Shown here piece after piece: positions 32,757 through 53,412 of a DNA stretch of 64,000 nt (its first letter is position 1; every line of letters begins with the position of its first letter). The notes beneath the pieces are model-generated. The model saw only the letters and a program-made list of their open reading frames with translations, was not told the DNA's origin and searched no databases. The stretch lies in NCBI GenBank assembly GCA_031265875.1, contig JAISCA010000048.1:173346-237345 (forward strand). Reading direction: 5' to 3'. This stretch comes from Propionibacteriaceae bacterium (GTDB lineage Bacteria; Actinomycetota; Actinomycetes; Propionibacteriales; Propionibacteriaceae). Made by a program: the position numbers and the translations under genes.

Positions 32757-32948
32757 CGTCCAACCTCCAATTCATCAACACTGACGAAGAGCCCTGGCTC
32801 CAGCCGCAGGCCGTGGGGAGCGCGGCTCAATGGCTGGAACACTATCACGCGGCACTGCGGGGTCCGCTGGGCCGGCAAGGGTTGCGAATCGCCTGGCGTG
32901 AGTGCGTTCGCCAGGCCTCGGCCGCCCAATGGGCGACCTATTGAATTT

Positions 32949-33194
32949 GTGGAGGTGCTTAGCCGACCGCGCTACGCACGGCCGACTTTCAACCCCCGCC
33001 TGCTCACACGCCACAAGGACCGAGGCTACGCCTCGCCCCCTGGTCAGCCCGGCCGCCGCCCCAGCGAGACAGTGGAGGTGCTTAGCCGACCGCGCTACGC
33101 ACGGCCGACTTTCAACCCCCGCCTGCTCACACGCCACAAGGACCGAGGCTACGCCTCGCCCCTTGGTTTGCCCGGCCGCCGCCGCCCCAGCGAG
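32949..33194. repeat. Tandem imperfect duplication (~120 bp x 2), each unit beginning with GTGGAGGTG
   Basis: gtggaggtgcttagccgaccgcgctacgcacggccgactttcaacccccgcctgctcacacgccacaaggaccgaggctacgcctcgcccc at 32949 and again at 33072. Confidence 0.9.
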
Positions 33195-33269: not shown

Positions 33270-33462
33270 GTGGAGGTGGCGGGAGTCGACGCGGGTTCGC
33301 TCCGCGAAACCGCCATCCTCGCTGGGCCTTCAGCCCAGCTCGGACCGTTCGCTATGAGAAGGCCTATGGCCTTCTCATAGACGCTCACGCCCTCTCGGGT
33401 TCGACTCCCACGGCACTATATAAATTCAATTGGGCCACCCTATGGGCGGCCCAATTGAATTT
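33270..33462 (-). repeat. tmRNA-tail element (structured non-coding element downstream of ssrA)
   Basis: 20-nt copy of the ssrA 3' end at 33270..33289, hairpins, inverted T-arm copy at 33396..33409, terminator hairpin 33422..33462; homologous core to 53144..53338. Confidence 0.75.
33422..33462 (-). terminator. ssrA terminator hairpin
   Basis: AAATTCAATTGGGCC-accctatgggc-GGCCCAATTGAATTT, 15-bp perfect stem abutting the ssrA 3' end. Confidence 0.75.
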
Positions 33463-33463
33463 G

Positions 33464-33829
33464 TGGAGGTGGCGGGAGTCGAACCCGCGTCCTTGAGCGG
33501 CGCTACAGGTCTTCTCCGGGCGCATCCGACCATGTCGTTCCACTCGGCTCTCACCCTCCTGTCGGCTTGTGGTGAACGAGCCCAGCCCTAGTTGAGTCCC
33601 GCGCCGTCCCTAGGACCTAAGCGGCGCAGCCAGCCTTCAAAATGAGACCAGGTTCCCCGGGGAAGGCGCCCGGGGTCTGACCCTTCGATCGCTGATCAGG
33701 CAGCGAGAGCGAAGTTAGTGCGCATGTTCTTGGCACTTATTGGTTTCCAGGGAGCGTTAACGAGACAACCCTGAATCCTCGGCCCGCTTCCCCTGGAACT
33801 ACCGTCCCAAGTCGAAACCGGTCACCCCC
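33464..33829 (-). ncRNA. ssrA: transfer-messenger RNA (tmRNA)
   Basis: 5' GGGGGTGACCGGTTTCGACTTGGG... 3' GGGTTCGACTCCCGCCACCTCCA; acceptor stem pairs; tag frame GCC AAG AAC ATG CGC ACT AAC TTC GCT CTC GCT GCC TGA = AKNMRTNFALAA*. Confidence 0.96.
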
Positions 33830-53143: not shown

Positions 53144-53338
53144 GTGGGCGCAACAGGACTTGACGCGGTTTCCTGCGGAAACCGCCGTCCTCAGCCTTCC
53201 CGTTGGTCAGGCTTCGGACCGCTCGCTACGAGAAGGCCAACGGCCTTCTCGCTTGACGCTCGCGCCCTCACGGGTTCAAGTCCGTAAAACATCGTTGATT
53301 TGGTTTGGGCCGCCCCCTGGGCGGCCCAAACCAAATCA
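53144..53338 (-). repeat. tRNA-tail element (structured non-coding element downstream of tRNA-Val)
   Basis: 20-nt copy of tRNA-Val 3' end at 53144..53163, hairpin GCGGTTTCC-tgc-GGAAACCGC, hairpin GAGAAGGCC-aac-GGCCTTCTC-type core, inverted T-arm copy 53269..53283, terminator hairpin 53297..53337. Confidence 0.75.
53297..53337 (-). terminator. tRNA-Val terminator hairpin
   Basis: GATTTGGTTTGGGCCGCC-ccctg-GGCGGCCCAAACCAAATC, 18-bp perfect stem. Confidence 0.75.
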
Positions 53339-53339
53339 G

Positions 53340-53412
53340 TGGGCGCAACAGGACTTGAACCCGTGACCTATTCCTTGTAAGGGAATCGCTCTACCAACTG
53401 AGCTATGCGCCC
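53340..53412 (-). tRNA. tRNA-Val(TAC)
   Basis: GGGCGCATAGCTCAGTTGGTAGAGCGATTCCCTTACAAGGAATAGGTCACGGGTTCAAGTCCTGTTGCGCCCA; anticodon loop CTTACAA. Confidence 0.95.

Follow-up and report, generated by a model that had tools for sequence, protein, structure and literature searches.

Tiny protein-free insertions with a T-arm guide and a conserved fold behind tRNA and tmRNA genes in Propionibacteriaceae

Our data indicate that two short non-coding intervals, one behind a tRNA-Val gene and one behind the tmRNA gene, are members of a hitherto undescribed family of tiny insertions that encode no protein and sit behind tRNA and tmRNA genes. Both lie in the window, by which we mean the whole 64,000-nucleotide stretch of DNA that was analysed. 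The identity of the family and the fact of insertion are near certain. We suggest more tentatively, as a real possibility that we stop short of calling probable, that these protein-free elements form a mobile class of a new kind. A folded strand (RNA or single-stranded DNA) would locate tRNA genes through its 12-nt T-arm guide, and this guide would be rewritten from every new target together with the two flanking copies.

An intact copy consists, in tRNA-sense order, of the tRNA 3' end (T55 to C74), an optional terminator hairpin, the 12-nt guide, a core of ~105 nt (P2-P5), a second T55-C74 copy and the old flank. The Val copy lies on the reverse strand behind its target gene, an intact tRNA-Val(TAC) at 53339..53412. 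The 3' end of this gene (T55 to C74; near direct copy, 53339-53358) is repeated exactly over 20 bp in the far direct copy 195 bp away (53144..53163), as the sequence-only reading had reported. That reading also placed an 18-bp terminator hairpin and a 15-bp inverted copy of the T arm between the two, and both are present with somewhat larger dimensions. The hairpin (53296..53338) follows the tRNA-Val 3' end immediately, is carried by the element, and is terminator-like and perfect, with 20 bp and a 3-nt loop; its central part is related to that of the tmRNA, Ala and Met copies in this genome. The inverted copy covers 16 bp (53268..53283 against 53351-53366 of the T arm, 100% identical) and contains the 12-nt guide proper, GGACTTGAACCC, at 53272-53283. 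The three smaller hairpins described earlier (GAGAAGGCC, AGCCT and GCGGTTTCC) were all found, and the 195-bp interval indeed has no ORF. The gene and its element together fold on the RNA-sense strand with a z of -9.5 against dinucleotide shuffles, and the inverted T arm might pair with the tRNA T arm in a transcript.

A search for the core pattern, which the sequence-only reading had proposed, gave two occurrences in the window against zero expected. The second one, at 33340, is part of a complete element behind the tmRNA (33270-33482, reverse strand) with the same arrangement as the Val copy, and the sequence-only reading had not counted it in this finding. The tmRNA (33463..33829) ends in the near direct copy (33463-33482) and is followed immediately by a hairpin with 19-bp arms that are 95% complementary (33422..33462). 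Beyond it lie the inverted copy of the tmRNA T arm (33396..33409, with the 12-nt guide at 33397-33408), the folded core (33282..33408) and the far direct copy (33270..33289), so that 20 bp of the tmRNA 3' end are repeated 193 bp away with its own T arm inverted between them. The tmRNA of a genome of the same genus (G008) runs directly into GACCGAGCAC...GCCCTAGGTTTG, which is an empty site. In the genome under study the same flank is joined to the far copy of the tmRNA 3' end, and therefore the near copy, the hairpin, the guide and the core constitute the insert. For two further genomes, G004 and G015, insertion is supported by synteny with the tRNA-Glu and tRNA-Met loci of the genome under study, which are empty. 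At other loci the far repeat extends through the hairpin and the guide, so that direct repeats reach 83 bp, or is followed by partial tandem units; we read both arrangements as probable remains of earlier tandem insertions. Beyond the tmRNA element the window also has two ~123-bp direct repeats (32900-33190, 95% identical), each with a GTGGAGGTG stretch resembling the tmRNA 3' end, and G008 has a single-copy version of this repeat behind its tmRNA.

The exact hairpin core occurs in the whole host genome at the Val and tmRNA sites only, and diverged copies are found elsewhere in it, mostly behind other tRNAs. Most tRNAs of this genome have no element behind them, and no exact inverted T arm was found within 400 nt downstream of the element-free ones. 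On contig C44 an extra tRNA-Cys is broken: a mini-element (L121:3933-4120) separates it from its displaced 3' end, and the near junction has become a short perfect hairpin. Since an intact tRNA-Cys is present elsewhere in the genome, splicing of the broken one is not needed, and we dropped the idea of a T-loop intron at this locus. In the same genome tRNA-Pro(GGG) and tRNA-Thr(CGT) (L107 and L081) are followed by tandem repeats of ~60-64 bp, each with the tRNA's own 3' end; these repeats have no folded core and recall the E. coli tyrT repeats.

We built covariance models from the copies, with a short calibration, and searched several hundred distinct genomes, all of the host's class and mostly draft assemblies. 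The first model (R1) gave 54 matches in 20 of the 199 genomes of the host family, and a second one made from these matches (R2) gave 63 matches in 22 of the 199, covering four genera, while the other 177 had no match. Outside the host family, one genome from a different family in the class has two copies, both behind tRNA-Ser genes. A same-strand tRNA or tmRNA gene ends at most 330 nt upstream in 54 of 67 aligned copies, with 24 distinct types represented, and a direct repeat of at least 18 bp accompanies 36 of these 54. Among the 13 copies with no such upstream gene, three have an integrated element or prophage in between (at tRNA-Ala on contig C17, at the tmRNA of G004 and at tRNA-Ala of G006), one lies behind the broken tRNA-Cys and several begin at a contig start. 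Truncated and tandem copies also occur in the family. Rfam gave no relevant match up to E = 10, apart from a chance RAGATH-13 match to the terminator hairpin, and no credible homologue was found in phages, plasmids or viral contigs. No neighbouring protein recurs besides the conserved neighbours of the tRNAs and reading frames overlapping the tRNA or the element. A comparable element was not found in the literature searched, which lay mostly outside subscription journals. A pattern match in Rubrobacteraceae (L023) turned out to be an unrelated palindrome. Chance and ordinary intergenic drift are ruled out by the core count against expectation, the covariation, and the guide and core permutations given below. 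The sequence-only reading had named two findings that would speak against it, namely the core at many sites unrelated to tRNA or tmRNA 3' ends and an interval of ordinary diverged intergenic sequence with no empty site in relatives, and neither of them came up.

The fold common to the copies comprises the guide stem, a hairpin with a GNGA loop and three further stems, two of which have tandem G.A pairs. From an alignment of six copies made with no structure imposed, RNAalifold recovered exactly the 46 pairs of the structure drawn by hand. In the Val copy the covariance models place the folded core on the tRNA-sense strand at 53156..53283. P1 forms between GGNNTYGA in the guide and TCRANNCC in the direct copy (53276-53283 with 53156-53163 in the Val copy), and P2 is a nearly invariant CCY-GNGA-RGG (CCC-GTGA-GGG, 53265-53274). 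P3 has three pairs, a tandem GA, two pairs and a long hairpin (53220-53264), P4 has four pairs, a tandem GA, five pairs and often a second tandem GA (53187-53219), and the Val copy has tandem GA in both. P5 is a hairpin of the GCGGTTTCC type directly before the far copy (53165-53185).

We found that none of 500 shuffles reached the covariation of the six copies in a plain MAFFT alignment. Among 54 copies both sides have changed in 41 of the 46 pairs, cells changed on both sides number 498 against a shuffle mean of 130, and pairing is 91% in register against at most 47% when slid; these 54-copy counts are biased towards the model, to which the alignment had been fitted, and the unguided six-copy alignment agrees with them. 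The helices are backed by covariation as in a structured RNA family, and the support for the fold is on par with that of a typical new one. The GNGA loop is kept in 48 of 54 copies, and tandem GA in one copy corresponds to Watson-Crick pairs in others. G.A mismatches are far more frequent than C.T, and G.U (56) than A.C (22), and therefore the constrained strand is the tRNA-sense one, either as RNA or as single-stranded DNA. A cruciform with both strands folded was considered and set aside, as the bias of G.A over C.T speaks for one strand.

The 12-nt guide is the antisense of the local T arm RGGTTCRANNCC, exactly in 31 of 46 copies and in at least 11 of 12 positions in 39; the other seven have poor guides and persist, and some of them may be dead. 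The four variable guide positions agree with the target in 170 of 184 cases, with a mean of 132 and a maximum of 156 in 20000 within-genome permutations. Where the T stem is AGG, in three tRNA-Leu copies, P2 changes to CCU/AGG. The guide spans the insertion point T54|T55 exactly.

Core similarity follows the host genome, not the tRNA. The nearest core is in the same genome for 22 of 46 copies (permuted mean 2.8, maximum 11), and 19 of these 22 nearest cores sit at a different isotype. Only seven copies have their nearest core at the same isotype, against a permuted mean of 4.9, and isotype is no predictor. For example, the Val and Ala(CGC) cores of the host genome are 89% alike, and in each the near copy, far copy and guide match the local tRNA, except for two mismatches in the Ala guide. 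The clustering therefore suggests that new targets are taken within genomes, with the guide and the direct repeat changing to fit. The economical reading of these data is that copies spread inside genomes and acquire their tRNA-derived parts from the target, and gene conversion among the cores of a genome could alternatively account for part of the clustering.

The sequence-only reading likened the Val interval to the att footprint of a tRNA-targeting integrase. The likeness holds at the borders, given the empty tmRNA site in a genome of the same genus and an integrase-bearing element at tRNA-Ala with the same boundaries. It is incomplete for the interior, a conserved folded core that recurs behind tRNAs of many types and has the inverted T arm as its target-matched part. 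When this core turns up at another tRNA of one genome, the two tRNA-specific parts are found changed. The element at tRNA-Ala(CGC) is 7.1 kb long (L018:440-7601, on contig C17 of the host genome) and has a Pfam Phage_integrase match of 5e-14, and a 5.5-kb element at the tmRNA of G004 (L188:1114-6600) has a putative integrase-like reading frame. Both share the att boundaries of the mini-elements (T loop to 3' end/C74) and stand in tandem with them. These two integrative elements, with integrase and AAA ATPase, are located between the RNA gene and the mini-element. They insert at the near copy; this establishes a common att site and does not prove that they move the mini-element. The mini-elements themselves have direct tRNA-3'-end repeats at both borders and an empty site in a relative. 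They encode no integrase, and no larger relative with their core was found of which they could be remnants.

Three other kinds of enzyme were considered as common helpers and rejected, as none is present in all carriers. Reverse transcriptase (RVT_1) is absent from G000, G006, G229, G208 and G030, although one could possibly have been lost since. Y1 transposase (Y1_Tnp) is absent from 19 of 21 carriers, including G000 and G006, which are 99% and 98% complete and have nine and five copies, respectively. The IS110 recombinase is present in G000 and G211, and most carriers, G006 and G050 among them, gave no match. Since the copy-rich genomes have no reverse transcriptase or Y1 transposase, G006 has no IS110, and resident integrases use the same boundaries, mobilisation in trans by such integrases, acting on the folded strand, is our leading proposal.

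We favour, with a confidence a little under even, a trans-mobilised, T-arm-guided mini-element whose tRNA-sense strand is folded as a single strand and moved by T-loop-specific tyrosine integrases; the enzyme and the copying step are proposed more hesitantly. The tRNA-sense strand would fold, with base pairs between guide and T-arm copy (P1) closing the structure. The best candidate enzymes, the integrases encoded by resident integrative elements, would act on this strand in trans as IntI does on attC or XerC on the folded attP of phage CTX. Insertion would open the T loop and leave T55-C74 doubled, so that the tRNA stays functional. The guide and the far copy would be derived anew from the target, during insertion or shortly afterwards, through copying or through hairpin or heteroduplex repair, and hence one core could spread to tRNAs with different 3' ends. 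We infer this added step for the rewritten guide, as ordinary integrase recombination does not account for both the direct copies and a guide fitting the new tRNA. Far copies that run through the hairpin to the guide are not predicted by the simple scheme.

The element might instead move as RNA, which we regard as unlikely. A tRNA-sense RNA, possibly catalytic, would pair its guide with the T arm across T54|T55, as an intron guide pairs with its exons, and enter by reverse splicing or target-primed copying. Such a route would account for the 20-nt target duplication, with both direct copies derived from the target, and it suits an insertion point exactly spanned by the guide, the GNGA tetraloop, the tandem G.A pairs and a constraint on the sense strand only. 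However, RVT_1 is missing from G000 and G006, the Rfam search up to E = 10 shows no intron or ribozyme, no conserved promoter motif was found before the guide, the terminator hairpin would block read-through, and G.U pairs make up just ~3% of the P2-P5 cells.

Equally unlikely in our estimate is that the copies are classical att-flanked remnants or cis-mobilisable elements, left by related integrative elements that differed in tRNA specificity, as short pre-matched attL-attR units with the inverted T arm as an accessory integrase site. The T-loop-to-3'-end direct repeats, the empty site and the tandems with integrase-bearing elements agree with this. Pre-matched units should nevertheless cluster by tRNA type, which the cores do not, the conserved single-strand fold is strong, and no larger integrase-bearing relative with the same core was found among the phages, plasmids, viral contigs and genomes searched.

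A host-useful cis-acting RNA or terminator module, serving 3' maturation or tRNA dosage and spread by occasional recombination, is improbable as a substitute for a mobile parasite. The copies do adjoin essential genes and frequently have a terminator hairpin, their T-arm antisense could pair with the tRNA, and a multi-helix structure is under selection. Against such a module stand the patchy distribution described above, both across the family and among the tRNAs of the host genome, the truncated and tandem copies, and the copy that interrupts the extra tRNA-Cys. Slippage-born tandem repeats of tRNA 3' ends without transposition, as behind E. coli tyrT, would suit the tandem partial units at some loci and the simple repeats behind tRNA-Pro and tRNA-Thr, but local slippage cannot give a homologous core behind unrelated tRNAs and in another family, and this explanation is contradicted and hardly credible.

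No landing site of bacterial mobile DNA is better known than the 3' end of tRNA genes. We compared the element with known systems, IS608-like guides, CTX attP, attC, CIMEs and tyrT among them. With tRNA-targeting tyrosine-integrase elements (ICEs, prophages and CIMEs) it shares the 3'-end direct repeat from the T loop, the intact gene, the empty site and tandem arrays. It differs from them in its 195-bp length, the lack of an ORF, the conserved folded core and the inverted T arm, and in reaching many tRNA types per genome with the tRNA-derived parts all re-matched, so it resembles them in borders only. Integron attC and CTX attP are folded single-strand sites in which structure is kept more than sequence and inverted partial sites pair into a duplex site. 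Unlike these, the mini-element has no recognised integrase boxes, its site is the tRNA T loop and its guide fits each target; by inspection the attC boxes GTTRRRY/RYYYAAC are not matched, the far junction being (T/G)CRANNCC and the T loop GTTC instead of GTTR.

The 178-bp repeats of E. coli tyrT, with RtT RNA (RF00391), are short non-coding units bounded by a direct tRNA-3'-end copy. They occupy one locus only in E. coli and are not known to have a T-arm guide, and RF00391 was not among the Rfam matches of our element. IS110 bridge RNAs and OMEGA RNAs likewise combine a structured sequence with a short target-complementary guide, whereas the mini-element has no protein gene, several carriers lack IS110, and the guide adapts to a target already occupied. 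REP/BIME sequences with RAYT (Y1) and MITEs are also short, palindromic, non-autonomous and multi-copy; in contrast, the copy-rich genomes here have no Y1 transposase, and the element targets tRNA 3' ends with ~20-bp repeats and has a five-helix fold. In membership tests for group I/II introns or known ribozymes, RT-mobilised RNAs, REP/RAYT and IS200/605, IS110, and tyrT/RtT, the element fell into none of these groups.

A shift of specificity between tRNAs appears to have been made many times by a 195-bp gene-free unit, with the tRNA-derived parts nearly always following. If the guide and both flanking copies are indeed rewritten from each target, one core could colonise any tRNA or tmRNA without damage. 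So small a system should allow direct tests of guide-target matching, T-loop insertion and target rewriting.

Two further kinds of repeat were observed. In G001 (L192, L193) low-scoring relatives of the element occur in tandem units with GGGTTCGATTCCC and GGGAATCGAACCCG, with no tRNA called nearby. A second palindromic repeat family of 70-90 nt, GATTGAGSCGAGAGC-hairpin-GCCGAGGCGATTGAG, lies directly past tRNA and tmRNA 3' ends (L111, L123, L028, L066), and in several genomes it is also inserted at or near the same guide point (TCGAAC|ACCCG) of the T-arm element (L187, L189, L137, L174, L191).
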